A DNA stretch of 64,000 bases. It comes from Impatiens glandulifera. Its lineage: Eukaryota > Streptophyta > Magnoliopsida > Ericales > Balsaminaceae. The first letter of the stretch is position 1, and every line of letters starts with the position of its first letter. Of the stretch, positions 21,838 to 62,477 are shown piece after piece. The notes under the pieces were generated by a model. That model had not been told where the DNA came from. It searched no databases and saw nothing but the letters and a program-made list of their open reading frames with translations. The position numbers and the translations under genes are program-made. The stretch covers positions 34,259,133 to 34,323,132 of the forward strand of contig NC_061863.1 of NCBI RefSeq assembly GCF_907164915.1, written 5' to 3'.

Positions 21838-23170
21838 TGATAGAAAAATTAAGTAAGTTAATTTTCTTAAAACCGGCCACACATTACAATTTTTGAATAT
21901 TTATTCTAAATAATCAAAAAGGGAGAAATTGATAGAAAAATTAAGTAGATTAATTTTTGAACCGGCCAAATAAACTAAACAGAGATTAATCTTCATGTGC
22001 AGGTACTTAACAAACCGGAACCGGTTGAGGCATCAAAAACCGGTTGCCACTACTTCAAAGAAACCAGCCTCAAGTGATCAAGTTAAAAGATCACAGGAAC
22101 CGACCTCACTTTCTCAAAGCAACCGGTTAACGAAGAACAAAAGATTACACTCCAACCGGATCATAATGCACAAGACACAGAAACCGGACAGTACAGATCA
22201 AAAGTCAGAAGATTCAAATCTCAAGAGTGACGTACCATGACGGAAGAAACGTGTCTTGAAAGAATAAAAGAAGATCAGATCCGATCAGAAGCATGCGAGG
22301 AAAGCAATGATGTTTTGCTGATCCGATGCTGACAGCCGGAAGCGGATGCTTAACACGTGTATCAATCTGAAAACCGGCGATGTCATCATATGCTCAGAGT
22401 CACCTGCATGAATGCCAGGTGTTGAGGAAGTTGAAGCGTGCAAGCAACCTTTCTGCAAATAGGCGTGCCAATGATCAACCAATCCGCAAGAGAGAGAAGA
22501 AAGTAACCGTTGGCTACTTTCAGCTATAAAAGGAAGACGGATCGTCTTCATTAAATGCAAGTGACGGATTACGAAAACAAATCATCAAAGCATTAAATTC
22601 TAGAGAGATAAAGTGTTATATTCCAAAAACCGGTGTGTTCAAAACCGGAAGTTCTTTGTGTGCGTTTTTGTTGAGTTGTTGTATTACATCAAAGTGTGAG
22701 TTTGGTGTAACCGGCGAGTAGCGAAGTTGGGCTCGACCGGAAGTGTAATTGTAACTCTAAAGAGTTAGTGGAGATCCTTCTCATAACCTGAGAAGAAGGG
22801 GTGACGTAGGAGGGTTTGCTCCGAACATCCATAAACAAATCCCTTGTCTTGTGCTCTTTCATTCGCTTTCATTTCCTGCTTTCTTAACGTAAACCGCAAA
22901 CTAATCATACTTCCAAAACCGGTCACTCACCTCCATTAAACCGACTCCTTCCTAGAACATCATCTAAAAGTCGCATTCGTTGCTTCAACCTGAAACAGAC
23001 ATTTCCGCCCTTGAACCCGGTTCAAGAGTCTATGACAGGTTGTGCAGTGCTGAGAAAGGTTTTAGTCTCTAACCGGACTATCACCAAAGAGTTGTGTGTG
23101 TTGTAAGCGGCCACCCTTACCTGAAACCGGAAAACACCCCGGTCCTCCAAGGGTGTCCCCGATCCTAATA
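21838..23170 (+). mobile_element. element B 5' LTR (1333 bp)
   Basis: It starts TGATAGAAAAATTAAG and ends CCTAATA (3' copy CCTAACA). The first 92 bp is a tandem unit that carries its own copy of the polypurine tract. A TATA box (TATAAAA) lies at 22525-22531, so transcription would start roughly 30 bp downstream. The conserved hairpin (CCTTCTC…GAGAAGG) and GTGACGTAGGAG…CTCCGAACATCCATAAA block lie at about 22773-22835. A second hairpin (CTTGAAC…GTTCAAG) lies near 23012-23030. Confidence 0.93.
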
Positions 23171-23172
23171 GG

Positions 23173-23184
23173 TGGTATCAGAGC
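23173..23184 (+). other. element B primer-binding site
   Basis: A perfect TGGTATCAGAGC two bases inside the 5' LTR, complementary to the 3' end of initiator-Met tRNA. It primes minus-strand DNA synthesis. Confidence 0.93.
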
Positions 23185-23212
23185 GAGGTTCTTAGCACTC
23201 AAGCAACCAAAG

Positions 23213-25094
23213 ATGGTGGGAAACATGACCCACAGCGACAAGCCGCCAATGCTAAACAGCGAAGCATTTAGCAGTTGGAAGAAACAGATGTATCTACATC
23301 TGATAACGTTAGATGATGAGATGAGCCGAGTCCTGAAAGAAGGACCGATCAAGATCAACAAGGAGGAAAGCCAGTGGACGAGTGAAGATCGGAGAAGAAG
23401 CAACCTGGACAACCATTGCATGAGGCATATCTACAAAGCTATAGATAACAACACTTTGAACAAAATATCAGAGTGCGAAAATGCAAAGGAAGCCTGGGAA
23501 ACGATTATCCAGATCCACGAGGGAAACGAAAGAACCAAGGAGAATAGAATCTTGGTGGCTACACAGCAGTATGAAAACATAAGGATGAAACTGGGAGAAA
23601 ATATGAAGGAATTTAGCAATCGGTTCACCAGCGTAGTAAACGAGCTTCAGACACTCGGAAAGAAGTATGACAACCGAGAAGTAATCATCAAAGCTCTAAG
23701 ATCACTGCCAAGCACGTGGGATATCAAGACCATGGTGATGAGGGAGTCTATCACCCTTGGGCTGATGAAGTTGCATGATGTGTTTGAGGATTTGAAAGCC
23801 TACGAATTCGAGATCAAATCTCGGATCGAAGATGAAGCATCTACATCAACCGCAACAAGAGCTTTGGTCACATCGGTGGAACCGGTGGCTCCAGTATCAA
23901 CCGCACCGGCTCCAGTCAAAAACACTGATCAAATAACCGACGATGTGATGGCGATGCTAGCCCAGAAATTCGGGAAATTCATGAAGAAGAGCCAGCCACC
24001 ATCTAATAATGATTTTAATTATAACTATGTAGATAAATCAAACAAAAGATGCTATAACTGTGATGGTTTTGGACATTTCAGGTCAGAGTGTAGAAAAACC
24101 AAGAAGAGACGATAGAAAACCGGAAGGAAATTATCAAGTAAATTATCAAGGAAATAATTATCAAGGGAATAATTATCAAGGCAACCGGTATCAAGGAAAC
24201 AATAATCAAGGAAACAATTATCGGGGAAACAACAATAACCAACGAAACGACTACCGAAGAAATGATGATCAACATGCTGATGAAGGAAAGGAGATCCAAA
24301 AAGCTCTCATTGCATCCGACGGTGGAAGCGAGTGGGCATATTCCGACAATGAAGATGGTGAAGAGAAAGTAACATGCTTCATGGCAAACGACGAAGAGGT
24401 ATTTGATTTCTCTTCTGATGAGTTCACTAAAGAAGATCTAGTATCTGTACTCAACCAAATGGTTGCTGAGTTCAGAAATATATCTGCGTATATGCCAACA
24501 CCTGTAGAACCTAAAACCGAACAAATAAATGATGAAAACGATAAAACATGTGAGATCAAAACACATGAACCGGATGAACTATTCTCGGATAGTGAGGAGA
24601 CAGTTCAACCGATAATGGAAATCGATGAACGAGCAATGTACGTCACGGCTGCGTGGGAGAGATCACGTCAAGCAGTGAAACAAATGTGTAACTATAAACG
24701 ACATCCGAAGTGTAGATATGGTATCGGTTATGATCCAAGTAAACAAAATGAAACAAAACAATCTAACGGGATGAAACTAACGAAAAACAATCTTCCATTT
24801 ATAAAATTTGTCAAAAGTTCACAAACCGAAAATGACCTAAAACCGGAAGAAACGCTTAAGTATGTAGGTCCTAACGAATCTGAAAAATGGCTTCATCCTG
24901 AGAGAAGGAAAGCCAACCGGAAACCAAATAAAAATAATAAAAACCGACATCAAAGAAGCCCATCACCACATAAGGCATTCTTGAGCAACGGCCAAGAAGT
25001 TAAGCCAAATATTATCAAAACAATAACCGGGAAAGTGATCCGACTAATTCAAGTCTGGATCTCAAAGGGACTAATCAACCATGGACCCAACTAA
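23213..25094 (+). pseudogene. element B gag (capsid/nucleocapsid), one frameshift
   Basis: The ATG at 23213 opens a UBN2/Retrotran_gag-type capsid region (AWETIIQIHEGNERTKENRI…, LRSLPSTWDIK). It is followed by a CX2CX4HX4C zinc knuckle (CYNCDGFGHFRSEC, about 24050-24090). Right after the knuckle a run of five A (near 24092-24096) appears to hold one extra base: the first frame stops at 24115 and Gag continues in the next frame from about 24097 to 25094. The continuation has NYQGN repeats, an acidic region and a C-terminus ending GLINHGPN. The TAA at 25092-25094 is followed in frame by MWVPK. Gag would form the virus-like particle and bind RNA. Confidence 0.9.
24120..24262 (+). repeat. in-frame short repeats coding for NYQGN units
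   Basis: About nine degenerate 15-18-bp repeats encode Asn/Gln/Gly/Tyr/Arg-rich units just after the zinc knuckle. This is a likely flexible RNA-binding tail, expanded by replication slippage. Confidence 0.7.
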
Positions 25095-25097
25095 ATG

Positions 25098-28000
25098 TGG
25101 GTACCAAAAAGGTGTAAATAATTGTTTGTTGCAGGTTAGGAGGAGCAATCGATTAAAGAATTCTAAATGGTACTTGGACAGTGGATGCTCAAGGCACATG
25201 ACCGGAAACAAGGAGCTACTGACCGACATCAAGTACGAAACCGGAGCATTCATCACATTCGGGGATAATTCAAAAGGTAAAACCGTGGGCAAGGGTAAGA
25301 TTGTCCATGGTGAACTATCCATAAATAATGTGCTATTAGTAGAAAAACTAAGCTTTAATTTACTAAGCATAAGCCAAATGTGTGATGTGGGCTACAAAGT
25401 TGAATTTCATAAAAACTCATGTTTAGTCAAAAATCAAAATGATGACACTTTGTTAACCGGTAACCGGATAGGAAACATTTACAAAGTGAACTGGAAAACT
25501 GATTTCGAAAAACCTGTGTGTATGATAGCCGGAAATGATCCAAATTGGCTTTGGCATAAACGGTTAAATCACTTGAATTTCAAAACGATTAACTTTATTT
25601 GTTCCAAGGAACTGGTTCACGGTTTTCCAAATGTTAAATTTTCAAAAGATAAAGTATGCGCTGCATGTCAAATGGGAAAACAAGTGAAATCATCCTTTAA
25701 AGTAAAGGAAATTATCAATCTGAAAGATGTTTAGAACTGTTGCATATGGACTTGTTCGGTCCGGTTAAAGTAACTAGTTTAGGAGGCATGCATTATACTA
25801 TGGTAGTTGTTGATGATTACTCCAAATTTACTTGGGTTACTTTCCTAGCTTCTAAAGATCAATCAACTTCAAACTTGATTAAACTGATTTTGAGAATACA
25901 AAATGAAAAATCTATTCGAGTAAACAAAATTAGAAGTGATAGAGGAACTGAGTTTATTAACAGTAATTTAACTACTTTTCTTGATGATTCCGGTATTAGG
26001 CACGAGTTGTCTAGTGCCAGAACTCCTCAACAAAACGGCCTGGCTGAGAGAAGAAACCGAACTCTCAAGGAAGCCGCAAGGTCAATGATAGCCGATTCGG
26101 GTATCGCTCAAAAGTTTTGGGCTGAAGCTATCAACACCGCCTGCTATACACAAAATCGATCTCTAGTGACTAAACGGTTTTCGAAAACTCCTTTTGAAAT
26201 TTATTTTGATAAAATTCCAAGTATACGGTATTTTCGAATTTTTGGTAGTAAATGCTTTGTTCACAACAACGGCAAGAAGTACTTGACCGCTTTTGATGCT
26301 AAATCCGATGAGGGAATAATGTTGGGATATTCAGCTGTTAGTAAAGCCTACAGAGTATACAATACTAGAACTTTAACAGTTGAAGAAACCGCACACGTTG
26401 TTTTCGATGAATCGGTTGAGCGAAACACTGCATTACCCTTCGACCTTCACAACAGAATGGAAAATTTCAATATCTATTCTGATGATGAAGACGAGGTTCC
26501 GGTTTTTAGACGCTTTGTCAAGGACCAAGCGGTTGATGTTGAAATTCAACCTGATCAAGCTGCTTTACCGCAGAAAGTTGACGCTTCAGTTTCTACTGAA
26601 GAAATCGGTCGGTCTGACTCTGTTCAACCTACCGATCAGTCTAACCTTGATCAGCCAGCCGAAAGCTTGGTAGACACGTCTCGGATTAACCTCAGAAGGA
26701 ACAAAAATCATCCTCTTGAACTAGTAATAGGTAACATATCCTCACCCGTCCGAACTAGGCAACAAAATTTGGATCACTATGGAAACTCTGCTTTCATATC
26801 ACAAATTGAGCCGAAAAAAGTGGATGAAGCACTGTCAGATCCAGATTGGATCTTGGCAATGCAAGAGGAATTAAACGAGTTTGAGAGAAATAAAGTTTGG
26901 TACCTAGTTCCTAGACCGAAAAACAAACCGGTTATAGGCACACGATGGGTATTCAGAAATAAACTCAATGAAGACGGTTTAGTTACGAGGAACAAAGCCC
27001 GGTTAGTGGCTCAAGGCTATAAGCAGGAAGAAGGCATTGATTTTGAAGAATCATTCGCCCCTGTAGCTAGACTTGAGGCCATTAGAATATTTTTAGCATA
27101 TGCAGCTTTCAAAAAGTTCAAAGTTTATCAAATGGATGTTAAAAGCGCTTTTCTAAACGGTAAAGTAAATGCAGAGGTGTATGTTAATCAACCTCCAGGT
27201 TTTAAAAATCCAGAACATGAAAATCACGTTTACCGGCTGAATAAAGCTCTTTACGGTCTGAAACAAGCTCCAAGAGCTTGGTATGATACTTTGACTCAAT
27301 TTCTATTTGATCACAAATTTACAATAGGTTCAGTAGACAAAACCCTCTTTAAATTTGAAAGAAAGGAGCAAATCTTACTTGTTCAAATTTATGTTGATGA
27401 TATCATATTCGGGTCAACCGACCCAAAGTTATGTGACAAATTTTCGAAAATGATGACTGATAGATTTCAAATGAGTATGATGGGGGAAATGAGCTTTTTT
27501 CTAGGACTTCAGGTTAAGCAGATGGAAGCCGGAATCTTTATAAGCCAACCGAAGTATACAGCCGAACTGCTGAAGAGATTTGGGATGGATACATGTGCCG
27601 AAGCGGCTACACCAATGAGTCCTTCCGTGAAGCTGGACAAAGATGAAGATGGTCAAGCCGTTGACATCACAGCATATCGAGGAATGATCGGATCGCTGTT
27701 GTATCTCACAGCAAGCCGACCTGATATTCTGTTTGCGGTTGGAGTGTGCGGAAGGTTCCAAGCAAACCCAAAGCAAACTCATTATACGGCGGCTAAAAGA
27801 ATCTTGAAATATCTGAAGGGAACAAAAGAAGTGGGACTCTGGTATCCAAAAGACTCGAGCTTCAATCTAATAAGCTACTCAGATGCCGATTACGCGGGGT
27901 GCAAAATCGACAGAAAGAGTACAAGTGGAACCTGTCAGTTTCTGGGTGACCGGCTAGTTACTTGGAGCGGCAAGAAACAAACGTCCGTTGCAACGTCAAC

Positions 28001-28343
28001 CGCAGAGGCGGAGTACTTAGCGACTGGAAGCTGCTGTGCACAACTCCTCTGGATTCAACAGCAACTCAGGGACTTCGGAATAGAAGCAAAAGAGTCTCCA
28101 ATATTCTATGACAACACCAGCGCCATAGCGATCACATATAATCCGGTGTTGCACTCAAGAACAAAACATATCGACATCCGACATCATTTCATCCGAGAGC
28201 ATGTTCAGGAGAAACACATCCGGCTGGAATATGTGTCGACCGAGCAACAAGTAGCCGACATCTTCACAAAACCGCTACAGGAAGCTAAGTTCTCACATTT
28301 TCGAAATATCTTGGGTCTTACTAATCTAAATCAATTGATATAA
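25098..28343 (+). pseudogene. element B pol: protease, integrase, reverse transcriptase, RNase H
   Basis: The protease motif DSGCSRHMTG is at 25177-25206. The integrase zinc-binding HHCC region starts near 25552 (WHKRLNH) and ends near CAACQMGK (about 25670). A small deletion at about 25730-25736 brings in a stop, and reading resumes in another frame from 25740 to 28343. That block has the integrase catalytic D, D and E ([22 protein letters not shown]) at residues ~4, 66 and 101. RT follows with [10 protein letters not shown] (~residue 550). RNase H has [14 protein letters not shown] and DNTSAI, and the sequence ends at FTKPL…NQLI. Integrase before RT is the copia order. Apart from the break, all catalytic motifs are intact. 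Confidence 0.92.
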
Positions 28344-28960
28344 TCAAAATGCATGCGTATATATAAAACCGGGATATGTGTTCAGGGAGAAGCTAAAGCT
28401 TCTCAAACCATATTCAAATAGGCCATTAATAAATCAAATATGCTAACCGGGAGGAAGTCTCCAGTTATGCCCGATTATCTCATTATTTCAAATCAAATGT
28501 ATGTTTACTATACGGTTGAAATAACCAGGTTGAAGTGGATAAAACAAGTCAAAAGTTGAACAATTGTTGATATCAATCAACTATTTTTCATAAACGGAAA
28601 TATCCTACTAAAACCGGTCATGGAAAACCGCTCAGTACATATGCACTCTGGTCTGATGAAATGAACTTTTCCGGTTAACCTGAGATGACCGACCGAGTTT
28701 TCGTGCATGTTTTGAAACATGAAGCCTGTGATTAATTAAAAACGAGTCTACCACAATCGAGATGACGACATGTGTCCATCATCAAGAGAGGGAGACTTAC
28801 ATCTTGTCAATAGATATTTTTTCATCATTGCTATCTTAGTAATTATTAGATTTACCATGGAAATAACCATTAGTTACTTCAACAAGTTAAGTCTATTAAA
28901 TAGCTGATGACATCATCAGGCATGCTTAAACTCATTAAAGACCAAGCCGAATCCCCGGGC
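28344..28960 (+). other. spacer between pol and the first accessory gene
   Basis: No ORF. It contains AACCGG words as in the LTRs. It presumably carries the promoter region of ORF1, since a TATA box follows directly. Confidence 0.5.
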
Positions 28961-28968
28961 TATATAAA
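28961..28968 (+). promoter_or_regulatory. TATA box of accessory ORF1
   Basis: TATATAAA, 93 bp upstream of the ORF1 ATG, followed by a CT-rich leader (tcctctctctctc) with no intervening ATG. This is a typical plant core-promoter layout. Confidence 0.6.
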
Positions 28969-29053
28969 CCATCCTTAATCCTTTTCAAAAACATCACAAG
29001 CTCACTATTCACAAGAATCACTCTTAAGATAAAATCCTCTCTCTCTCAAAAAC

Positions 29054-29815
29054 ATGAATACCAACCCCCTAGCCAAGAAAATCCTATTGGCAGATTTTGA
29101 ATCAATCTACCAATATGAGGATCATGAGGTCAAGGAAATGTTCTTAGCCATAGAAAGGAGTGGGCTAAGAAGTTTTCTTGAGAACAGGTTCATCATCGAC
29201 TACCTTGTAGTCGAAGAACTGTTTGAAACCGTGAAAGAGGTGCATCGAGATATACTCGTCGCACAGGTTTACGGTAAAAAATTCCTATTCAGCGAGACGG
29301 ATTTCGCTGTATACTGCGGTTTACCCAATGAAGGGGTAACCGACCTAACCTATTCTCCGGTGACAATGGAAGAAATGTGTCGCCGGTTCTCTGGATCTAA
29401 CATCCCGGTTAAACCCTGGGGTGCTAAGAGTCAACTTTCACACAAGTACCAGATTCTCTGCGAGATTCTGGGAAAATCTGTCTTGTGCAGAGAGAAAAGT
29501 TACTATTACACTCAAAGGGTATTCGAGATGATGATCGCCGTAACGGTTGGGACACCGGTTAACTGGTCCTGGATCATCTTCAGTAACCTGAAGAAGATGA
29601 TTCTCTCCAACAAAACCGGCTACGCTCCTTAGCTGAGCGGTTTCTGCGCAAGTCTGGAGATCCACTCCGGAGCCTTCGTCACTCTTCACCCAAGGCACGT
29701 GCTCATCAAAGAACGAGTACAAGAGATGATCGACCGGTGGGAAGCGTTTAAAGCCAGAAGAATTCAAGCGGCTGAGGCTTCAAATGCTCAAGCGGCTGAG
29801 TCATCAAATGTCTAA
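29054..29815 (+). pseudogene. element B accessory ORF1 (253 codons, one in-frame stop)
   Basis: The frame runs 762 nt, but a TAG at 29630-29632 (after …GYAP) interrupts it; the paralogue ORF2 has CAG (Gln) there, so this is a simple C-to-T loss. Downstream the frame stays open to 29815 and ends in an Ala/Gln-rich tail. The protein shares its plan with ORF2 and ORF3: an L-x-DF segment at the start, a SGLRSFLE motif, a short element like VxEhF, a beta-rich stretch, GLPNEG near residue 95, SHKYQILCEILGKS, and a helical VGTPVNWSWIIF motif near residues 165-180. By eye it resembles the 'putative plant transposon protein' domain. Function is unknown. Confidence 0.7.
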
Positions 29816-30129
29816 ACATGTCTTTCCTCTTTTCTTTTATCCTTTCTTTACAAAACCGGTACTTTTGCTGTACTACCGGTTTCGTACGTCAATTAATGAA
29901 TCGGATTTCTTTCCTTTCCAAGTCAAAATCTACAACATTCAATGCGTCGTATCAAAAATAAATCATTTTACTCTTGGAAACATAAATTCTCATTATCAAA
30001 AAGCATGCCTGACTTGATTTGACAAGACCTGCCTTTATTCTCTTGGAAAATCACAAAAACATTAATGACTAAGCATAAAACGGCTAGATTTTTAAATCCT
30101 CTCATTAAATGCTCTCATTCATTCCAGAC
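29816..30129 (+). other. spacer between ORF1 and ORF2
   Basis: AT-rich DNA without an ORF. The far end holds the ORF2 core promoter. Confidence 0.5.
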
Positions 30130-30136
30130 TATAAAA
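30130..30136 (+). promoter_or_regulatory. TATA box of accessory ORF2
   Basis: TATAAAA followed by GGGG, 110 bp upstream of the ORF2 ATG, with a CT/CA-rich leader (ttcttctctctaaaactc) between. Confidence 0.65.
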
Positions 30137-30239
30137 GGGGATCCAACCTCCATTTTCAAAAACACGCCTTCAAGCATTCTTCTCTCTAAAACTCAAAAGC
30201 TCAAGAACTCTCTCACACTTCTCTTCACTACTCATCACC

Positions 30240-31001
30240 ATGTCTGCCGAGCTAAGAAACACTCTTATCATCGACTTTGAGGATATCAAGGACAGTGCCT
30301 ACTATGAATGCATTTTTCAGCATATCATAGACTCTGGTTTGAAAGGATTTCTCAAGGGTTCGGACACCATCCTCGAAGAGGAGGTGTATGAATTCTTTAA
30401 CAATGGTCATATTCTGGATGACGGCAGCATCCGCACCATCATCGACGGCCAATTCCTCCAGTTTACCGAGGAAGAATTCGCCACCTACTTTCACCTTCCG
30501 ACCGAAGGTTTTTCTGACTTCCCGACGCCATTCCTGCCGGTTAAGGAAGACTTCTTCCAGATCTTTTCCTCCTCCAACGCTCCGATTAAGGACTTTGGGA
30601 AGAAAGATACACTTGCTCCTCACTACCAAGTCCTGCATGACTTGGTTCAAAGGTCTATCATAGGCCGAATGCCTAACCAGAACTACAGCCGGGAGGCATT
30701 CGACATTATGATAGCAATCATTCGCAACTCCTCCATCAACTGGGCGTCCTATCTCTTCAATAAGCTGAAGCAGCTTATGACCGGTAAAAGAGGAAGGATC
30801 AGCTACGCTCCTCAGATCACCCGGTTTCTGATGTCCAAGCGTCGCAACCTTGGAACCGGTGTTCCGGTTGGACCATCCAACACTTTCACCATGATCATGA
30901 TGCACAGGTGGATATCAAGGATTGAGGAACGATCACCTGAAAACACCCTTGAAAAATGGTATGAAAGGATGGTGGAAGGAGGATGGTTCACCGAAGATTA
31001 A
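30240..31001 (+). CDS. element B accessory ORF2, intact 253-aa protein of unknown function
   Basis: The ATG at 30240 is in good context (caccATGtc) after a 5' leader. The frame is fully open for 762 nt. Features in order: LIIDFEDI (residues ~10-17), SGLKGFLKG (~33-41), a helix with EEEVYEFF (~47-54), IIDGQFLQFTEEEFATYFHLPTEG (~65-90), HYQVLHDLVQRSI (~130), a helix with SINWASYLFNKLKQL (~164-178), YAPQITRFL, then a C-terminus ending EKWYERMVEGGWF. It is clearly paralogous to ORF1 and to the first ~220 residues of ORF3, though diverged. No signal peptide, membrane segment or enzyme motif is visible. A plausible role is a protein-interaction or DNA-binding accessory factor; this is inference. 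Confidence 0.8.
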   Translation: MSAELRNTLIIDFEDIKDSAYYECIFQHIIDSGLKGFLKGSDTILEEEVYEFFNNGHILDDGSIRTIIDGQFLQFTEEEFATYFHLPTEGFSDFPTPFLPVKEDFFQIFSSSNAPIKDFGKKDTLAPHYQVLHDLVQRSIIGRMPNQNYSREAFDIMIAIIRNSSINWASYLFNKLKQLMTGKRGRISYAPQITRFLMSKRRNLGTGVPVGPSNTFTMIMMHRWISRIEERSPENTLEKWYERMVEGGWFTED

Positions 31002-31406
31002 ATCTTTCTTTCTCTTTACTTCTACTTTCCGGTTCTTGGTCATTTTGCTGTACGACCAAAACCGCTCAACATCGAATATCATTTCTAATGAAATAGTTAA
31101 TCTTAAAAAGTCTCCGGCTTTTTCATTTTCATTATTCCTTTCCGGTTTTTTTTTCAAACTTATACAAAAAACTTAAAGTTAACTTAACTATCTCCGGTTA
31201 ACAAGACTTCAAAAGAAACCGGAACTTCGAGCAAAGATGAAAATTTGAAAAATCTTAACCGCCCATGGTTTTACCTCTCAAAATTTACCGCCCATCGAAT
31301 TTCCGCTTTTACCGCCGAAAGTTACGGCAGTAACTTTTGGAGGGAAAGTTGGCGCCAAAAACACTAAACTGACGGTTCATCTTCAAAACCGCTTGGAACC
31401 GCCATC
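31002..31406 (+). other. spacer between ORF2 and ORF3
   Basis: No ORF. It contains several CCGGTT/AACCGG words and 'accgccca/cgccaa' words near 31257-31350 shared with the equivalent spacer of element E (61200-61380). Confidence 0.5.
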
Positions 31407-31414
31407 TATATAAA
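31407..31414 (+). promoter_or_regulatory. TATA box of accessory ORF3
   Basis: TATATAAA, 108 bp upstream of the ORF3 ATG, followed by a CT-rich leader (gctttctctctctaaa) without an upstream ATG. Confidence 0.65.
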
Positions 31415-31514
31415 CTCAAATCAGCCCATTCAACACACGTGCTTTCTCTCTCTAAAATTTCCAGAACTTCAAAGATCTCCTCTCTCCGATCATCTTCTTC
31501 TCTCAAATTCTATC

Positions 31515-34358
31515 ATGGATCTAGGAAAAGCTCCATTTCAATCGATGTTGCAGGTTGATTTCGCAGATATTGACGAGCATGCTGACTACAAGAACAAGGC
31601 TGTTCTTCAACTTCTACGAGAATCTGGGTTGGAGAAGTTCCTTTCTGGTCCGTTCACCATTTATCCGGCGGCGGTGACGGAGTTCTTAGCGACGGCGACA
31701 CTGTTGAAGAGAAAGATCTCGGCTACTGTCAACGGGAAGGCCGTCCTCATCACTGAAGAAATCTTTGCGGAAGCCCTTGGTCTGCCCAACACAGGTTCAG
31801 ACCTAAAGTTCGACTTAACCGAAGCAGAATCAAATGCTGCCCGGTTGGTTGTATCTTTCTCAGGTCAGGATCTGGTGATCCACAACAGCCGGAAGATCAA
31901 GCTAAAACCGGAATACAGATGGTTAGTGACCGTCATCGCCAAATCACTCCAAGGAAAGGGAGGTAACTTCGATAACCTCACAAAGTTTAAGCTCAGAATG
32001 TTGTTAGCCATTGTTCGCGGAGACAAGGTGGACTGGGGATACGTTATATACGAAGAGTTTTGTCAAATGGTGATTAAGAAAGATGGCCGGGTGCAGGCCT
32101 ATGCTATGCAAATCGTCAAAATTCTTGAGTTCCTTAATGTGGAACTAGGTGAAGGCATACCGCTTCCGATCTCCAACATTCTTGACTCTGAGTCAATGGC
32201 AGAAAGACCGGAGAAGACGATCAAGCCTAAATCCTCAAAGACTAAATCATCTAAGGGAGCTAGCTCATCGGTTCCAGTTGAAGAAGAAACAAGACAGAAG
32301 AAACCGTCAAGAAAAGCGGTTGAGGCAGAAGCTCCACCAGAACCGAAGAGGAGGAAGAAGGTAGCTGCGAAGAAGAGTTCAAAGAAACCGGCGGACTCCG
32401 AGAAAACGCTTTCCTCGGACAATCCACCAGAAAGAACTGCAGATGTATTTCAGCCCATCCCAATCAACACCGTTATCCCAACTCCCATCCCATCCAATTC
32501 TCCAAGGCAAACCGAATCTTCGGGGAGCAATGAGAACAAGTCAAACTCAAAGGAGGAGGCAGAGGGAAATGTTCACTCTGCAACCTCCAAGTCACCCAGC
32601 AAGCAAGCCAAAGAGGTATTAGCCGATGTGGGCTTGAATACCTCAGAAGCAATTCAGAATGTGGTCCAGGAGATCACAAGAGACACCGAAGAGGACGATG
32701 TCTCAAGTCGTCGGAAGCCAGACAATCAGGTTGAAATACCTGATCAAACAGAAGTTCAACCGGTCGATGAGACGACCAAATCAACAGAAACTGCACCTCC
32801 GGCTCAGGAGGTCAATATTGAAGAACAGGAACCTTCCGGTTCCTCAGGAGGCAAAACAGCTCCAGAAGGTCCCACTCAGGTAGACAAAGGCAAATGCATT
32901 CTTTTTGAAGAAACAACGGAAACCGGAACGGGCACGTTGCAAATCAATCCTCAAACTGAAGCCATAACCGGAGACGAGCTTCCATACACCATAGAGCAAG
33001 AAAATGAGCTATTTGATGAATTTATTCAAGACATGAACAAAGGTGCAAGTGAAGCGCTAGCTCCATACATCCGGTGGGTGAAGCTCCGATGCGAAACCAA
33101 ATTATCCGACATGCTTCCAGGTTTTAGTGGAAACAGACAGTGGGACAAACTCGTCAAGCTAGAAGAAATGGCACTCGAGCTAGCTAACACCAATCTAATC
33201 CAACCGGCGTTTAACAAAGCTCCGGTAATCCTTGAAAACGTTCGGTTACAGGCAGTTGAGAATGCCTTTCAAGAAATCAAAGGAAAGACACTAGAACCGA
33301 TTGAAATGAAGATGGCCGAACGATTTCTTGGGGTACGAGAACAGCTTGTGCGAAATTTCGATCGTCTTGATAAGCATTGGTGGAAAAGTTGCCAACGTCA
33401 ATTCAACAATCCTGAGTTATATCAAAGTAAGCCTCTCTTTATAAGTGGTGAAACATCCGGCACCTCTGAAAACCTGGAACAAGAAGCCTCTCAACCGGTC
33501 AAAGCTCTGGACATAGATCAAATCAAGCAAGCAATAGTGGAAACAGCTGATTCATGCCTTGGGAACTTTACAGTAGTAACCGACGAAAGAATTTCAGTGG
33601 CTGAAGATAAAATGTTAATTTCTCTACAAACCATGATGGACACGACCATGCAAACAATAGTTAAAACCATGATTGCCGAGTCCGTCAAAGCCGCAACCGC
33701 TCCACTTTTGGACATGCTGCAAGCAATGGCAATTCAAATCGGGGAAATGTCCAAGGTTCAAGTCAGCTCAACCCAAACACAAATCGAACAGGATGCTGAA
33801 ACCGCACAGAAATTGCAAGAAGAAGAGATTGAAAGAGAACGGCTACAGAAGGAACTTGAAGATAAAGACCATGAGCTTGCCCAACAATGTAATGAAGAGG
33901 AGCAAGCTAACGTCCAGGAACAGGTACTGGGTCAATCGTCCCACTCCATGAGCACAAGGAACAAGAACAAGAAGAAACGAAGTGCCGTTAAAAACGTGAT
34001 GAAGCGGGCAGAACAGAAAACAGCCGCACCGGTTGCGATAAATGCGGAACCGCTTGATGAGGAAGAAGAAGAAGATCCGGAGGAACTTAACAGACGGAAG
34101 AGAAGGACAACCGGAGAATCCACAGCAACTCCAAGCTTCAGACTTTCGACTGTTCCACCTCCTCCACCGCCAAAGCCAGCTTGCGCCAACTTCAACCTTA
34201 AGTATAAGGGCACCGGTCATTCAAGTGTATGGGCCGGTGTGCTGATCGATGCCGACAGACGTGCTAGAGAACACAGAGCAAGGCAAGAAGAAGAAAGAAG
34301 ACGGTTGGAAAAAGAGCTGGAAAAAGAGCAACACAAGGGGGGACCATCCAAGCCCTAA
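31515..34358 (+). CDS. element B accessory ORF3, intact 947-aa protein
   Basis: The ATG at 31515 opens an uninterrupted 2.8-kb frame. Residues ~1-220 are the same domain as ORF1/ORF2: LQVDFADI, SGLEKFLSGPF, VTEFLATATL, ISATVNGKAVLITEE, GLPNTG, VDWGYVIYEEF, GEGIPLP. Then come a Lys/Ser/Pro-rich region with a basic PKRRKK cluster near residue 275 (possible nuclear signal), an acidic Ser/Thr/Gln-rich linker, and a helical block around residues 490-640 with LPGF. A region of possible coiled coil follows (~700-800, EEEIERERLQKELEDKDHELAQQ). The C-terminus has a Pro run (PPPPPPKP) and a final charged helix (RRLEKELEKEQ). No transmembrane segment is seen, so it differs from a classic envelope-like protein. 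Function unknown; structural or RNA/DNA-associated roles are guesses. Confidence 0.82.
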   Translation: MDLGKAPFQSMLQVDFADIDEHADYKNKAVLQLLRESGLEKFLSGPFTIYPAAVTEFLATATLLKRKISATVNGKAVLITEEIFAEALGLPNTGSDLKFDLTEAESNAARLVVSFSGQDLVIHNSRKIKLKPEYRWLVTVIAKSLQGKGGNFDNLTKFKLRMLLAIVRGDKVDWGYVIYEEFCQMVIKKDGRVQAYAMQIVKILEFLNVELGEGIPLPISNILDSESMAERPEKTIKPKSSKTKSSKGASSSVPVEEETRQKKPSRKAVEAEAPPEPKRRKKVAAKKSSKKPADSEKTLSSDNPPERTADVFQPIPINTVIPTPIPSNSPRQTESSGSNENKSNSKEEAEGNVHSATSKSPSKQAKEVLADVGLNTSEAIQNVVQEITRDTEEDDVSSRRKPDNQVEIPDQTEVQPVDETTKSTETAPPAQEVNIEEQEPSGSSGGKTAPEGPTQVDKGKCILFEETTETGTGTLQINPQTEAITGDELPYTIEQENELFDEFIQDMNKGASEALAPYIRWVKLRCETKLSDMLPGFSGNRQWDKLVKLEEMALELANTNLIQPAFNKAPVILENVRLQAVENAFQEIKGKTLEPIEMKMAERFLGVREQLVRNFDRLDKHWWKSCQRQFNNPELYQSKPLFISGETSGTSENLEQEASQPVKALDIDQIKQAIVETADSCLGNFTVVTDERISVAEDKMLISLQTMMDTTMQTIVKTMIAESVKAATAPLLDMLQAMAIQIGEMSKVQVSSTQTQIEQDAETAQKLQEEEIERERLQKELEDKDHELAQQCNEEEQANVQEQVLGQSSHSMSTRNKNKKKRSAVKNVMKRAEQKTAAPVAINAEPLDEEEEEDPEELNRRKRRTTGESTATPSFRLSTVPPPPPPKPACANFNLKYKGTGHSSVWAGVLIDADRRAREHRARQEEERRRLEKELEKEQHKGGPSKP

Positions 34359-34564
34359 ACTCTATTTCTATAATTATTTTTGAACAATTATGTTTTACCG
34401 TGTTTCAGAACTTGGCTACTTTGCTATCTCTTATGTTTTTCAAACATATCTTTTATGTTTTTCAAACATATTTTTCTTAAAAATCTTACTTATTTCAAAA
34501 CATACAAAATCAAACTCATGTTTTTCAAACACATTTCTCTCAAATCAATTGAACTCATACTGTT
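34359..34564 (+). other. 3' spacer of element B
   Basis: T-rich with short repeats (catgtttttcaaacatattt) at 34435-34540. No gene. Confidence 0.5.
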
Positions 34565-34807
34565 AACCGGCCACACATTACAATTTTTGAATATTTATTC
34601 TAAATAATCAAAAAGGGAGAAATTGATAGAAAAATTAAGTAAGTTAATTTTCTTAAAACCGGCTACACATTACAATTTTTGAATATTTATTCTAAATAAT
34701 CAAAAAGGGAGAAATTGATAGAAAAATTAAGTAAGTTAATTTTCTTAAAACCGGCCACACATTACAATTTTTGAATATTTATTCTAAATAATCAAAAAGG
34801 GAGAAAT
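34565..34807 (+). repeat. 92-bp tandem repeats spanning the 3' LTR start
   Basis: Units starting TGATAGAAAAATTAAG and ending AAAAAGGGAGAAAT occur at 34624-34715 and 34716-34807, preceded by a partial unit from 34565. The 3' LTR begins inside this array (34716), so each unit carries a polypurine tract. The 5' LTR also begins with one such unit. Confidence 0.88.
34702..34715 (+). other. element B polypurine tract
   Basis: AAAAAGGGAGAAAT directly before the 3' LTR. It primes plus-strand DNA synthesis. Further copies lie in the flanking tandem units. Confidence 0.88.
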
Positions 34808-36048
34808 TGATAGAAAAATTAAGTAGATTAATTTTTGAACCGGCCAAATAAACTAAATAGAGATTAATCTTCATGTACAGGTACTTAACAAACCGGAACC
34901 GGTTGAGGCATCAAAAACCGGTTGCCACTACTTCAAAGAAACCAGCCTCAAGTGATCAAGTTAAAAGATCACAGGAACCGGCCTCACTTTCTCAAAGCAA
35001 CCGGTTAACGAAGAACAAAAGATTACACTCCAACCGGATCATAATGCACAAGACACAGAAACCGGACAGTACAGATTAAAAGTCAGAAGATTCAAATCTC
35101 AAGAGTGACGTACCATGACGGAAGAAACGTGTCTTGAAAGAATAAAAGAAGATCAGATCCGATCAGAAGCATGCGAGGAAAGCAATGATGTTTTGCTGAT
35201 CCGATGCTGACAGCCGGAAGCGGATGCTTAACACGTGTATCAATCTGAAAACCGGCGATGTCATCATATGCTCAGAGTCACCTGCATGAATGCCAGGTGT
35301 TGAGGAAGTTGAAGCGTGCAAGCAACCTTTCTGCAAATAGGCGTGCCAATGATCAACCAATCCGCAAGAGAGAGAAGAAAGTAACCGTTGGCTACTTTCA
35401 GCTATAAAAGGAAGACGGATCGTCTTCATTAAATGCAAGTGACGGATTACGAAAACAAATCATCAAAACATTAAATTCTAAAGAGATAAAGTGTTATATT
35501 CCAAAAACCGGTGTGTTCAAAACCGGAAGTTCTTTGTGTGCGTTTTTGTTGAGTTGTTGTATTACATCAAAGTGTGAGTTTGGTGTAACCGGCGAGTAGC
35601 GAAGTTGGGCTCGACCGGAAGTGTAATTGTAACTCTAAAGAGTTAGTGGAGATCCTTCTCATAACCTGAGAAGAAGGGGTGACGTAGGAGGGTTTGCTCC
35701 GAACATCCATAAACAAATCCCTTGTCTTGTGCTCTTTCATTCGCTTTCATTTCCTGCTTTCTTAACGTAAACCGCAAACTAATCATACTTCCAAAACCGG
35801 TCACTCACCTCCATTAAACCGAATCCTTCCTAGAACATCATCTAAAAGTCGCATTCGTTGCTTCAACCTGAAACAGACATTTCCGCCCTTGAACCCGGTT
35901 CAAGAGTCTGTGACATGTTGTGCAGTGCTGAGAAAGGTTTTAGTCTCTAACCGGACTATCACCAAAGAGTTGTGTGTGTTGTAAGCGGCCACCCTTACCT
36001 AAAACCGGAAAACACCCCGGTCCTCCAAGAGCGTCCCCGATCCTAACA
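34716..36048 (+). mobile_element. element B 3' LTR (1333 bp)
   Basis: Same length and layout as the 5' LTR. The TATA box is at 35403-35409, and the hairpin plus GTGACGTAGGAG block at about 35651-35712. The end CCTAACA is followed by the GACCA duplication. Confidence 0.93.
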
Positions 36049-39998: not shown

Positions 39999-41995
39999 TG
40001 TTGGGTCAAATTATTTTGACTAAGTGTTGAAATAATTTAACCACTAATATTTTGATGATGAAATAACTTATGAGTTTTGATACAGGTGTATTGAGACAAT
40101 ATGTTATAAAACTTGGATTTAACGAGGGTCATTAGACTGATTTTGGATTTCATTGCATAAAATTAGACGTACAGTCTAACTCATCGGAGTTAGACGTGTA
40201 GTCAAATAGATGTAAAGAATTAGACGGATAATCTAATGAATACACAGAATTAGACGTAAGTCTAATAGAATTAGACGTACAGTCTAACTCATCGGAGTTA
40301 GATGTGTAGTCTAAAAGATGTAAAGAATTAGACGGATAGTCTAATGAATACACGGAATTAGACGTAAGTCTAATAGAATTAGACGTACAGTCTAACTCAT
40401 AGGAGTTAGACGTGTAGTCTAATAGATGTAAAGAATTAGACGGATAGTCTAATGAATACACAGAATTAGACGTAAGTCTAATAGAATTAGTCGTACAGTC
40501 TAACTCATCAGAGTTAGACGATAGTATAAAAGATGTAAAGAATTAGACGGATGGTCTAATGAATACACGGAATTAGACGTAAGTCTAATATGTTTGTAAT
40601 TAGACGGGTAGTCTAATTGATATTCGGAATTAGACGTGCAGTCTAACTCAGTGGAGTTAGACGTGCAGTCTAATGGTTATTGAATAATTAGACGTGTGGT
40701 CTAATTAATAAAAGTTAGACGTGAGTCTAACTCCTTCAGACAAGTCTAAAGTAGAACCAGAATTAGACGTGCAGTCTAACTCAGTAGAGTTAGACGTGCA
40801 GTCTAATGGTTATTGAATAATTAGACGTGTGGTCTAATTAATGAAAATTAGACGTGCGTCTAACTCCTTCAGACAAGTCTGAGGTAGAACTGAAAGTTAG
40901 ACGTGAGTCTAACTCCTTCAGACAAGTCTGAGGTAGAACCGGAATTAGACGTGTAGTGTAACTCAATGGAGTTAGACGTGCAGTCTAATGGTTATTTAAT
41001 TAGACGCGAGTCTAATTCTATTAGACCATGCGGTCTAATAAACGTTTTTCTATTAGAAGGAGATGACTTATTTCATTAGACTGATTTTCACAATCATTCT
41101 AACTGAAATACGTCTAATGCTCAGTTTAAGCAGTACGCTTGAATCTAGTATTTCACCTACCCACGTGCTATAGCTGTACCTTACTTCTGTTCCACTTTAT
41201 AGTAAAGATTAGTACAGCAGCTATACGCATCCAATCAAGGAATGCCACGTAAGAGAATTTTCCTCAAATTACTTGTTTTGCAGGTACATCCCTGATGGAA
41301 TATTCGGCGCACTACTAGTTCTGTACGGCCACAATCCTTGTGCTCAGAACCTGTTGTGTACAATGGAGGCTTTCTAATGGAAGAGTGCCACGTATAATTC
41401 TTGAAGATTCGACCGTTAGTTCCTGCTCAGTATTTAACAAATCTCAAGGACAACGGACAATCTGCCTCACAAACAAGCGAATACAAAAAACAAGAAATCT
41501 GATTTTGCAGAGAGAGAAACTACTCAATCATCTTGCTTACTGAACTGTGAAGCTTCTTTCTGATTGTACTGTGTGTGAATCGAGAGAGAGAGCTATAATC
41601 AAAACACCTTTAGCTGAGTGATATTCTTCATCTTGTAATTAAACAGAAAGTGTTCTGTTCACTAGTGAGCTAAGTGTGTGTGTAAACTGTATTTGATTCT
41701 AATCATATTATAGTGAATCTTTTCGGTGATTGGAAGAATGAGTGACGTAGGAGAGTTTCTACGAACATCCATAAACAAACTGCTGTATTGTTCTTTTCTG
41801 TCATCTTTTCATATTTCATCTTGTGCTTCAAACCCAAGTAAACAATTCCGCCTTGAATCCGTTTCAAGTGTTTACACAAGTTTGCATAGAATAGAAAACG
41901 AATTAAATCCCTAACAGTATTTCTTTCAAACTGTTTTTCATAAGCCTTCATCCTTAGCCAGACCCCAGTCTCTATCGATAAAGCCGATCCTATCA
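39999..41995 (+). mobile_element. element C 5' LTR (1997 bp)
   Basis: It starts TGTTGGGTCAAATT and ends GCCGATCCTATCA. It holds a palindrome-rich array at about 40165-41060, a TATA-like TATTTAAC near 41430, the GTGACGTAGGAG…CGAACATCCATAAA block near 41740-41773, and a CTTGAA…TTTCAAG hairpin near 41852-41870. Confidence 0.9.
40165..41060. repeat. array of TTAGACGT/AGTCTAA palindromes in the C 5' LTR
   Basis: Dozens of short inverted-repeat units (such as TTAGACGTGCAGTCTAA) are organised into higher-order ~108-bp repeats in the first half and ~85-110-bp variants in the second. Because 108 is a multiple of three, a minus-strand ORF stays open here; it is not a gene. Confidence 0.88.
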
Positions 41996-41997
41996 AT

Positions 41998-42009
41998 TGG
42001 TATCAGAGC
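41998..42009 (+). other. element C primer-binding site
   Basis: A perfect TGGTATCAGAGC two bases after the 5' LTR. Confidence 0.92.
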
Positions 42010-42040
42010 CCTGTTTCTATTCTCAAGCCTTTCCTGAAAT

Positions 42041-44304
42041 ATGTCGAACATACCCAAAGATGCCAGTGCTACATCCATTCCAACTTTCTCTCGTGAAAAC
42101 TACATTGTTTAGAAGAAAAGAGTTCGTGCTCATCACTCTTCTCTTCATGATGACATGTGGAGTGTTGTGATAGAAGGTCCTATCAAGATTGATAAGGAGA
42201 AGGCCGACTAGACCGCTGATGAAAAGAGGCAGAATAACCTCAACAACATGGCTCTTGATATTCTCTACAGATCTCTCGATGACAGTATGTTCAACAACAT
42301 CATCGAATTTGACATTGCCAAAGAGGTCTGGGACAGACTCACTCAACAATGTGAGGGCAACGAGCAAACCAAGGAAAACAAGATCATGGTTGCTACTCAA
42401 CAGTTCGACAGCTTCAAAATGCGTCCTGGTGAAACAATGAACGATTTTGACACCAGATTTAGCAAGATCGTCTCCTCTCTGTCATGCGTGCAAGACATAT
42501 AACAACTTGGAGCTTGCTATCAAAGTCATGCGTGCTCTTCCAAGAGAATGAGACATAAAGACTATGGCGATGAGAGAATCCAAAGATCTTAAGAAGATCT
42601 CTCTCTTTGATCTCTTCGCTGACTTGAAGGCCTATGAGTTCGAGCTGAACTGTAGGATGGAAGAAGATAAACCTGAAGAAGAGCCACCAACCGCTACGGA
42701 TGTAAAGATGGCGGCTCAGCAGCTGAGCAACGATGCCATGTCTCTCTTTGTGAAGAAGTTTGGCGACTTCATGAAGAAGAGCAACTCTAACTCAAACTCT
42801 TCAAATTCTAATGATAATAGAAAATCTAAAGCTAATGTTACTTGTTTTAACTATGGTATTAAAGGTCATTATTCATCGGAATGCCGGAAGCCAAAGCGTG
42901 AAGATGCCAAGGATGATGGAAAAGAGCTGAAGGCTTTTATGGTTGGTGACGGAAAGAACAGAGAAAGTAGCCGTGGCTCGTACTTCTCATCTAGTGAAAG
43001 TGATGAAGAAGACGTGGCTTGCTTCATGACTAGAGAAGATGAAGAAGGAACTCAGAAGACTGAGGTATTTGATTTCTCTTCCGAAAGGTTTTCAAGGGAA
43101 CAACTGGTAGCTGCACTAGATGACATGGTCATCGAGTACAGGAAGCTATCAGAATCTCTAAATGAAACTAAATCTTAATCAGATTTAAATAAACTAAATC
43201 TGTCTAAAGGGGAATAGTCAAATGATTTTGAAAAGAAGATTGAAGAGATCTCATCTGAGAATGAGATGCTCAAGGAACAGATTCAAACTCTTTCATCTGA
43301 AAACAAAAGGCTTAACTATGTTGTCTGTGCATGGACAAGGTCTGGTGATGCTATCAAATATCAGATCAGCATGTTGAAACATACTAGATCTAGATATGGA
43401 TTGGGATTTGATAGCAATGACCCTAACTTGTCATGAAAAAAGTCAAAACCAAATGACAAGTTTAGAAATGGTTAATGATACAATCAACCAATGAATTATA
43501 ACGTAATTATTCTATTGCTAAGATTCATATAGTGGAAGTAACTAAGAACTTGGATTGGAGTCAAAATATTATTGAATTCTCAGAACTACTTCAGGATCTT
43601 CTATCCATAGAGTCTTTGTGAATCCAGCCGACTTTCGTTGTTGCATTTGTTTGCCCCGATCGTTAAATTCTTCGATCTTTTTTTGGATCTGATCTCCTTA
43701 TTTATTCAATTTGCAGTCACAGACAAGATGGAAGAACTTCTTTTTGAATTCCCATCTAAATTCACAGTAGTAGGGCAAATTGGATATATTTTTAATTCAT
43801 ATATAACTAGTCAATATCTAATGTAATATCCCATATACATGTCTTTCTTCCATAACGTAAACTAACTATTACTATCTTAGATTTAATCGAATTCTAGAAT
43901 AATTCGGCAAAACCTTCACAATAGTTGGCTTATTTCTATAAAATTCCATAGGCCTAGTTTGACCTAAGCCTATAAACTTTGTCAAAGGGAGTACGACTGA
44001 CAGTGAACCTGATTCTATTCATTAAGAAGTTGCTTTCAAAAATGAAATAGTTTATGTTCCACCAACTGTTAGCTGGCTTAAGAATAAGTTAGAAATAGCT
44101 AATAAGTCTGGTAATTTAAAACCTGACTCTAAGTCATGGAGTTTTAAGAGAAAATCTTCTTCAAAAGTCAAAGGATCAGTGGCTAGTAGGAAGTCATCTG
44201 CTAAGTCAAAATCTTATGCATTAATCACAACACAAAATGGGAAATCCATTAGAATAACTCAAATATGGATTCTTAAAGGACTAATTGATCGAGGACCCAA
44301 TTAA
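42041..44304 (+). pseudogene. element C gag, heavily broken
   Basis: From the ATG at 42041 the product resembles B Gag (EGNEQTKENKIMVATQQF, LKAYEFELNCRMEE). TAG stops at 42110-42112 and 42209-42211 replace tryptophans, and a frameshift lies near 42490. The zinc knuckle near 42850-42890 is damaged: its second Cys is Tyr (CFNYGIKGH…C). After a stop at 43178 the frame continues with a helical ENEMLKEQIQTLSSENKRL segment and RYGLGFD. A foreign insertion of about 350-470 bp follows. The C-terminal part (43975-44304) ends LIDRGPN, with TAA then VWVPK, exactly as in B. Confidence 0.85.
43507..43965. other. foreign insert in the C gag, with an exon-like stretch
   Basis: Gag similarity stops near 43500 and resumes near 43970. 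Inside, 'tttgcag' is followed by an open stretch coding TDKMEELLFEFPSKF…GQIGYIFN (43718-43795), which looks like a splice acceptor and part of a host exon. A 9-bp direct repeat ATAACGTAA (43498-43506 and 43852-43860) may be a target duplication, but no inverted ends were found. The source gene is not identified. Confidence 0.35.
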
Positions 44305-45154
44305 GTATGGGTACCAAAATTTGTAAATAGTTTATTTTGTAGGTGATGCAGGAGGATAGCAGGAAGGAAGCTAGAAGAGTACTCCTCTGAGTACACGGCT
44401 TGGAAAATCAACAATGGCATTTGTCATTCTGGAAAAATAAATGTTTTTATTTGTTAAAAAATGGTTTTGGTCTTTAGACCACAAAATTTTTTTTATTCTA
44501 AATGTCTATATTCATAATGAGAAGCAAAAATCTCTTTGGAATTAAAGATATTCTCTAGACGAATATCCTTAATCGGTCTAACTAGACAAGAGTGGCTAAA
44601 AGAAATAATATGTACTAAGACGTATTTTTCCTCATAATCCATACATCTAAGTCTATATGTTGAGGTGTTATACCTACGTAATTAGACGGACACATCTAAT
44701 AGACGTTAGACGTTTTTACGTCATGAGCAAGTGGATACTCACGTCTAATCAAACACACGTCTAACACGTGGTGTTTATGCGGAATTAGACATACACGTCT
44801 AATAAACATTAGACGGATTTTTATAAACACGGAATTAGATGTATGCGTCTAATACACTCATTCGTCTAATAGACGCTGTGTTATATTGGATTTATGAAGT
44901 AAGACAAACGTCTAACTACGTGCCGATAGACTGATCAAGGACAACTATCCCACGTTGAGAGATATCTGCTTTTCCCGCTCAAAACATCAAACAGTCATCT
45001 CTTAATAACATGAAGACATGTGTCTATCAAGTTTAGAGAAAATGACTGATATACCCTCATTTTTAATGATGACTTCTTGAAAAAGGACGTCTAACATTTA
45101 TTAATGGGCCATACCCCTAGAGTAGACGGTTATTATGTATTTTCCTCTTTCATC
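44305..45154 (+). other. element C gap where pol is missing
   Basis: None of the copia pol motifs (DSGCSRHMTG, the integrase D/D/E, YVDD, RNase H) can be found between the end of gag and the accessory promoter. The region holds TTAGACG-type words like the LTR array (44680-44930) and no ORF. Confidence 0.75.
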
Positions 45155-45162
45155 TATATAAG
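45155..45162 (+). promoter_or_regulatory. TATA box of the element C accessory gene
   Basis: TATATAAG, 105 bp upstream of the ATG at 45260, with a CT-rich leader between. Confidence 0.6.
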
Positions 45163-45259
45163 GACATTACTACATGAATTTGAAAACTTTCAATCTCTTG
45201 AAATCCTTAAGAACCCTAGCTTTTCTTGCATTTCTCTCACTAAATCTCTCTGAAATACT

Positions 45260-48670: not shown

Positions 48671-48809
48671 CTCTCATGAACAATTGTCTTTGATGGTTTC
48701 TCGAATACTAGTTCTTTGGATGAATGATGTAAGTGAACAAGGTTTTTGTTTATTTATATGATGAATGCATGTTTTGTTATATATATGTAGGTTTGAAATT
48801 TCTTCATCG

Positions 48810-48822
48810 AAAAGGGGGAAAT
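48810..48822 (+). other. element C polypurine tract
   Basis: AAAAGGGGGAAAT directly before the 3' LTR. Confidence 0.85.
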
Positions 48823-61090: not shown

Positions 61091-61197
61091 CTTAGAGAGT
61101 TTGAGAGAGTTTGAAGAATAACCGCTTCAGAGAGTTTGAGAGCTTAGAGAGACAAAGCAATTTCGCGTGAGAATGAAATGAATTGGCCGAGAGCCCC

Positions 61198-61204
61198 TTT
61201 TATA
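61198..61204 (-). promoter_or_regulatory. TATA box of element E ORF3
   Basis: Minus-strand TATAAAA followed by GGGG, about 108 bp upstream of the ATG at 61090. The spacing matches B ORF3. Confidence 0.65.
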
Positions 61205-62387: not shown

Positions 62388-62477
62388 GATTACGGTTTTG
62401 CAGAGAGAGATAGAGTTCAAGAGATTTCAGGAATGTTTTATGCTTTAGGATGTGTTGAGTTGAGTAGAGGATGGTCC

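Follow-up and report, generated by a model that had tools for sequence, protein, structure and literature searches.

We report the analysis of a 64,000-nucleotide stretch of the Impatiens glandulifera genome (assembly GCF_907164915.1, contig NC_061863.1, positions 34,259,133 to 34,323,132 of the forward strand), hereafter called the window, in which a Ty1/copia retrotransposon, element B, carries three accessory genes in sense orientation behind pol. Judged by its sequence features, each of these genes is probably an RNA polymerase II transcription unit of its own, in a tandem array of paralogs within a SIRE-like copia element. A sequence-only reading of this DNA had proposed a cassette of separately transcribed genes; the layout and the TATA boxes on which it was built do exist and are found again in diverged relatives (six of seven genes), and from them we infer independent transcription. 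The three open reading frames (ORFs) were confirmed to lie between the end of pol at 28343 and the 3' long terminal repeat (LTR), at the positions given by that reading, which had overlooked both the truncation of ORF1 in the window copy and the paralogy of the genes. The cassette, in window coordinates, is as follows:

28961..28968, plus strand: TATA box 1, TATATAAA, 93 bp before ORF1
29054..29632, plus strand: accessory ORF1, 192 aa (ORF list)
30130..30137, plus strand: TATA box 2, TATAAAAG, 110 bp before ORF2
30240..31001, plus strand: accessory ORF2, 253 aa (ORF list)
31407..31414, plus strand: TATA box 3, TATATAAA, 108 bp before ORF3
31515..34358, plus strand: accessory ORF3, 947 aa (ORF list, Pfam and protein comparison)

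The positions and spacings of the three boxes agreed with the earlier description, as did the character of the leaders, which are CT-rich and ATG-free: in the last 75 nt, C+T amounts to 57, 67 and 72% and G to 4-5%. With the start taken as TATA + 30, the predicted leaders measure 62, 79 and 77 nt and lack an ATG. A TATA box at a conserved distance and a short ATG-free leader, as expected of an own RNA polymerase II core promoter, were thus found for each gene. The motif TATAWAW was then scored at -130..-60, and its chance occurrence was taken from the 300 bp upstream after dinucleotide shuffling. Shuffles contained the motif in 6.4, 2.6 and 1.7% of cases for the B genes, so that three of three corresponds to P 2.8e-5.

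Related genes outside the original observation were found in two further elements of the window, C and D:

58575..63694, minus strand: element C (tblastn), a three-gene cassette as in B, strongly diverged, with genes 1-3 broken in the window copy
ATG 63624, minus strand: C gene 1, tblastn match 63609-63043, with TATTTAAG at -69
ATG 62387, minus strand: C gene 2, tblastn match 62351-61806, with TATATAAA upstream
ATG 61090, minus strand: C gene 3, tblastn match 61069-60220, with TATAAAAG at -114 and several E2F cores upstream
39999..50822, plus strand: element D (blast), with LTRs at 40001-41995 and 48825-50822 (95.2%), gag and one accessory gene
44971 and 45155, plus strand: promoter of the D gene, with an E2F core and the TATA box TATATAAG, respectively; tblastn match to the gene at 45287

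TATAWAW was present at the scored distance in three of these four genes (C gene 2, C gene 3 and the D gene; P 4.5e-4) and, over all family genes of the three element families, in six of seven (shuffle P 2.3e-8). Such recurrence between element families is stronger evidence than conservation within a family. The TATA box ahead of C gene 3 is kept in 27 of 30 C copies and that of the D gene in nine of 11 D sequences. The ATG of the D gene at 45260 is kept in three of the 11, and the next in-frame ATG, at 45284, may be the gene's start, with TATA at -129 and the TATA count unaffected.

The window has, on its two strands, 31 ORFs that reach 100 codons. Five of them have a TATAWAW box, and all five are starts of the accessory gene family; among the 26 without one are the start of C gene 1, where TATTTAAG takes its place, and internal fragments of family genes that are broken. 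When ORFs of at least 50 codons were considered (n=120), eight had a box, five of them with a pyrimidine-rich, G-poor leader, and these five are family gene starts identical with the five found at 100 codons. Separately, the plus strand contains GACATGTGTC at just two places, 28767 (upstream of B gene 1) and 45015 (upstream of the D gene), whose flanks are similar.

In the mechanism that we propose, the LTR promoter (TATA at 22525) would make the gag-pol and genomic RNA, and from the internal promoters would come short mRNAs, each with the ATG of ORF1, ORF2 or ORF3 as its first. A unit would consist of a TATA promoter, a short ATG-free leader and the ORF, to which genes 1 and 2 would add a conserved 3' hairpin and AATGAA. 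Three such promoters with short mRNAs would account for the boxes and leaders as well as for the conservation and the recurrence. On an RNA started in the LTR, 141 ATGs lie ahead of ORF1, compared with 0 on the internal leaders.

The number of upstream ATGs also bears on translation of the ORFs from genomic RNA by stop-codon suppression or reinitiation. Suppression is reported for SIRE1 in the passages cited from PMC2829016, and the sequence-only reading had set element B apart from SIRE1 on this point. The contrast was upheld: 710 nt separate pol from ORF1, the pol frame contains 11 in-frame stops, and ORF1 lies in a different frame, not in frame behind a single stop as in the SIRE1 type, so that readthrough from pol is in practice ruled out. 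Between consecutive ORFs there are 11, 5 and 7 in-frame stops, the frame shifts at pol/ORF1 and at ORF1/ORF2, and the 141 ATGs weigh against suppression and reinitiation alike; we regard a SIRE1-like route as very improbable.

Translation of the three ORFs could also draw on spliced subgenomic RNAs that begin in the 5' LTR, a route reported for Bagy2 and predicted for Athila; the TATA-like boxes would then be incidental. For plant elements of the Ty3/gypsy type, the parts of PMC7264820 cited here describe spliced env-like RNAs, and AG dinucleotides occur in all three leaders of element B, so splice acceptors are possible. The last AG, however, is situated 27, 36 and 42 nt ahead of the ATG and precedes the final CT-rich stretch, and splicing leaves unexplained both the constant place of the TATA box in six of seven diverged genes and the conservation of the proximal promoters. 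We consider this explanation unlikely, and favour internal promoters.

Conservation was followed in copies of element B from the 654-Mb Impatiens glandulifera assembly, where ORF2 as query gave 19,006 loose candidates, of which 150 were scored and the top 30 used; because they were chosen by ORF2 similarity, these 30 are biased to close, open copies. TATAWAW is retained in 29, 28 and 30 of them for genes 1, 2 and 3, respectively. ORF1, which in the window copy is cut short by an internal stop, is ATG-started and open over 253 aa, the length of ORF2, in 22 copies; ORF2 is open in 28, the fetched part of ORF3 in 28, and all three in 20. Pairwise differences at codon positions 1/2/3 were.075/.051/.152 for ORF1,.035/.019/.118 for ORF2 and.042/.021/.159 for the N-terminal part of ORF3, and since third positions differ most, all three genes show constraint at the protein level. 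The 150 bp ahead of each TATA box vary less than the third codon positions (.094 vs.151,.075 vs.118 and.047 vs.159 for genes 1, 2 and 3), and those of genes 2 and 3 are also less variable than the spacer further upstream (.119;.168). The leaders show no such restraint (.153,.151 and.097). The proximal block of gene 3 is:

31257..31406, plus strand: conserved proximal promoter of ORF3, mean pairwise difference.047 vs.159 at third positions

The promoter of gene 3 contains in addition a site that resembles the binding site of E2F, the core consensus of which is TTTSSCGC:

31349-31358, plus strand: E2F-like palindrome TTGGCGCCAA before ORF3 (gene 3 site TTGGCGCC)

On the two strands of the window together, TTTSSCGC occurs seven times; in B, C and D, the promoters of the gene-3-type genes account for four of these cores, all within 300 bp ahead of the TATA box (shuffle P.001), with 0 in the five other promoters scanned (B1, B2, C1, C2 and the LTR). 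At least one E2F core stands ahead of gene 3 in 27 of 30 copies of element C, and the E2F-like TTTCCCGC of element D is kept in 11 of 11 sequences. The sites of B and C have the common context GGAGGGAAA..TT[GG/CC]CGCC.AAAAC, with GGCGCC as one core and CCCGCC as its counterpart, a change that still fits the E2F consensus. As far as sequence can tell, these sites are the most informative promoter sign of function, though they were found by looking and not predicted.

Each unit of element B resembles a whole gene with a promoter and a 3' end, and the window copy is partly broken, as would be seen if a gene with its own promoter had been captured and duplicated long ago and its promoters were now silent or irrelevant to the element. 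Against such relict promoters stand the promoter-proximal DNA, which is less variable than third codon positions for all three genes in the 30 copies, the E2F core, retained by 29 of 30 B copies and by all 11 sequences of D, and the constraint on the ORFs; we give this possibility little weight. Active internal promoters remain the preferred reading, and gene 3 is probably switched on in dividing cells through its E2F-like site. More tentatively, and as a possibility rather than an expectation, the cassette may form a virus-like programme of tandem complete genes, the last under E2F (cell-cycle) control, whose proteins would, irrespective of the LTR promoter, differ in the cells or phases in which they are produced. 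Element D, with gag and a gene under the same E2F/TATA promoter, is what one would predict for a gene of importance in its own right.

Genes 1 and 2 of element B are each followed by a 3' element:

29853..29900, plus strand: 3' element of gene 1, a 9-bp hairpin at 29853-29882 with loop CTTTTGCTGTAC and AATGAA at 29895
31030..31092, plus strand: 3' element of gene 2, a hairpin at 31030-31064 with loop ATTTTGCTGTAC and AATGAA at 31087

The loop motif TTTTGCTGYAC is found three times in the window, each time directly past a gene 1 or gene 2 stop (the end of the B ORF1 frame, B ORF2 and C gene 1), and the stems that close it differ between genes. All 9/9 pairs of hairpin 1 are intact in 26 of the 30 B copies, and all 6/6 inner pairs of hairpin 2 in 25 of the 29 scorable ones. 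Hairpin 2 has the stem CTGGTC/GACCAG in 15 copies, TTGGTC/GACCAA in 10 and another in 5 (tally by reading), and the swap may be one inherited two-sided change. The loop contains UGUA in 28 of 30 cases for hairpin 1 and 29 of 30 for hairpin 2; the downstream signal is AATGAA or AATAAA after gene 1 in 24 of 30 and AATGAA after gene 2 in 30 of 30. When folding was compared with shuffled RNA, the B hairpins had z -2.74 and -3.21, and one other copy z -3.1. Rfam gave no match in 28344-34800 up to E 1. Our guess is that this element, with UGUA and a near-upstream AATGAA, acts in polyadenylation.

Several observations weigh against the proposed separate units. C gene 1 has only TATTTAAG in the window copy and likewise in two other copies inspected, and the box of C gene 2 is not TATAWAW in one of three copies. 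Within the B family the TATA octamers are unexceptional among non-coding 8-bp windows (10.5, 43 and 7.5th percentile), which places the within-family signal in the proximal block and in the retention of the boxes. The columns of related copies are not independent and come from one genome, the tests of E2F sites, leaders and proximal blocks were defined post hoc, and the leader thresholds in particular were fixed after the leaders had been inspected. Taken alone, the single E2F core of B gene 3 is not significant (shuffle.10). As for the 3' ends, the hairpin of C gene 1 in the window folds no better than shuffles (z -0.51), the standard form gave no match after C gene 2 at 30 loci, and a 3' hairpin was not found after B ORF3 or after the D gene.

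The proteins themselves point to one origin. Homology extends over ORF1, ORF2 and the N-terminal 220 residues of ORF3, at identities of 32% (ORF1 vs ORF2, E 1e-28), 29% (2e-22) and 28% (5e-18), and on this sequence comparison the three genes are diverged paralogs of one gene type, so the cassette arose by duplication of that type. In ORF3, the N-terminal domain common to ORF1 and ORF2 is followed by basic runs and a Glu/Lys-rich C-terminal half. ORF3 matches Pfam PF20167 Transposase_32 ('putative plant transposon protein') at 36.8 bits, which falls short of the curated cut-off (45), and ORF1 and ORF2 have no PF20167 match at E up to 1. The maxima of the Kyte-Doolittle 19-residue mean are 1.27, 0.79 and 1.16 for ORF1, ORF2 and ORF3, and by this measure, a dedicated predictor not having been run, no obvious transmembrane segment was seen. 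None of the three predicted proteins looks like a membrane envelope. With no obvious membrane segment and with the basic runs of ORF3, trans-acting regulators are favoured over envelope proteins; we infer that the accessory proteins are most likely trans-acting regulators of the element, and that of ORF3 is probably nuclear.

Protein searches, which needed shared 5-residue words, matched only five Impatiens glandulifera gene models, and a profile from eight domain pieces gave no matches at E <= 0.001 in a search of the same kind. Because both depended on such words, the gene family may well occur in other species. Two host gene models of Impatiens glandulifera, P0001 and P0002 (drug-resistance transporter and sesquiterpene synthase), include pieces of ORF2/ORF3, which are probably annotation fusions or exonised element sequence.

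The remaining parts of element B are:

21838..23170, plus strand: 5' LTR with TG..TA ends (blastn; ends and flanks inspected)
22525, plus strand: TATA box of the 5' LTR, CTATAAAAGG
directly behind the 5' LTR, plus strand: primer-binding site (PBS), TGGTATCAGAGC
23096..28343, plus strand: gag-pol region in four ORFs, 23096-24115, 24060-25094, 25081-25734 and 25740-28343 (ORF list, Pfam)
34610..34815, plus strand: polypurine tract (PPT) AAAAAGGGAGAAATTGATAG in three copies at 34610, 34702 and 34794 (the last within the LTR), in a 92-bp repeat
34716..36048, plus strand: 3' LTR (blastn; flank inspected)

The LTRs are 99.1% identical across 1331 bp without gaps (blastn), and a 5-bp target duplication, GACCA, flanks the element at 21833-21837 and 36049-36053. 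Element B is young; its copy in the window is not intact, as gag-pol is broken into four ORFs. Pfam identified Retrotran_gag_2, zf-CCHC, Pol_BBD, gag_pre-integrs, rve, SH3_retrovirus and RVT_2 in this region, and the integrase lies ahead of the reverse transcriptase, which with the LTRs and target duplication identifies a Ty1/copia LTR retrotransposon. We take the PBS to be of the tRNA-Met type. The gag-pol region presumably resembles that of the SIRE lineage, a label that rests on this resemblance and on structural features, among them the sense extra ORF behind pol. Near the 3' LTR the PPT is AAAAAGGGAGAAATTGATAG in all three copies, and AGGGGGA is found nowhere in 28344-36050; unlike the Sireviruses, for which the cited part of PMC2829016 gives several identical PPTs grouped close to the 3' LTR, element B lacks their consensus PPT octamer AGGGGGAG.

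Element D has no match to the pol of B (tblastn), and since it has gag and the gene, the accessory gene also occurs without pol. Its LTRs contain tandem repeats of 108 bp and 133 bp. Other neighbours in the window are:

56876, minus strand: element E, D-like, with one accessory gene (tblastn)
59-1459, minus strand: remains of a related LTR and gag at the left window edge, 72-85% identity to B
15564-17058, plus strand: ORFs that we take to recall a CACTA-type (tnp2-like) transposase

The accessory ORFs of D and E also differ most at third positions (E frames.132/.126/.238 and.125/.102/.294; one D frame is weaker,.131/.170/.191). The 3' LTR of C ends at 56948 on the minus strand, right at the leader of the accessory gene of E, a nested insertion near the presumed start site. 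An origin of E as a deletion derivative of D was considered and dropped; a simpler account is a D-like element that the 3' LTR of C interrupts at 56948.

Internal promoters in retro-elements are already known, and the idea is not new for Sirevirus env. As stated in the cited passages of a 2010 paper, an internal promoter for the env-like genes of Sireviruses was hypothesised in 2002 with none found, and the env promoter had still to be identified, CpG-rich repeated motifs at the env 5' end hinting at one (PMC2829016). Expression of env-like or extra genes of the Sirevirus type has been a question since that hypothesis, and the B family, which is abundant, young and in a sequenced plant, supplies concrete conserved promoter positions. 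In the literature searched, with subscription journals mostly outside its coverage, no report was found of TATA promoters for several sense accessory genes in one plant retrotransposon, and no description of tandem sense internal promoters with paralogous genes and an E2F-like site; on E2F sites in transposons nothing usable emerged. Should our interpretation hold, an LTR retrotransposon of a plant can contain several genes under separate regulation, with a possible link to the host cell cycle for one of them, and internal promoters would matter for gene annotation, as host gene models already include ORF pieces.

Compared with known systems, element B is closest to the Sirevirus/SIRE copia elements (SIRE1, ToRTL1, Endovir1-1), with which it has in common the domain order, the PBS behind the LTR, several polypurine tracts and a sense extra ORF behind pol. 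An extra ORF behind pol is present in 74% of SIRE elements, in 19 mostly unrelated groups, according to the cited part of PMC6317226. The sunflower Athila 3' aORF(+) is likewise a sense ORF behind pol with weak PF20167 similarity and predicted nuclear; Athila belongs to Ty3/gypsy, has one such sense ORF, and an internal promoter is not mentioned in the passages cited from PMC11728184. Maize Grande gene23 is also an accessory gene between pol and the 3' LTR, with its own promoter and a nuclear protein in the cited account (PMC7264820), but it is a single antisense gene of a Ty3/gypsy element, whereas element B is copia, with three genes in sense. Yeast Ty1i/p22, in the portions of the sources drawn on here, combines a copia-superfamily element with a sense internal start and a separate regulatory protein; Ty1i starts inside gag and yields a truncated Gag, whereas element B has separate genes with their own TATA boxes. 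The 19S promoter of cauliflower mosaic virus (CaMV) is an internal sense promoter beside the genomic promoter. Foamy viruses similarly combine an LTR promoter with an internal sense promoter for accessory genes in the cited part of PMC7828637. Foamy viruses and CaMV have one internal promoter each and unrelated proteins, whereas element B would have three in tandem; and where SIRE1, ToRTL1 and Endovir1-1 have one extra gene, element B has three paralogous genes, each with a predicted TATA promoter.

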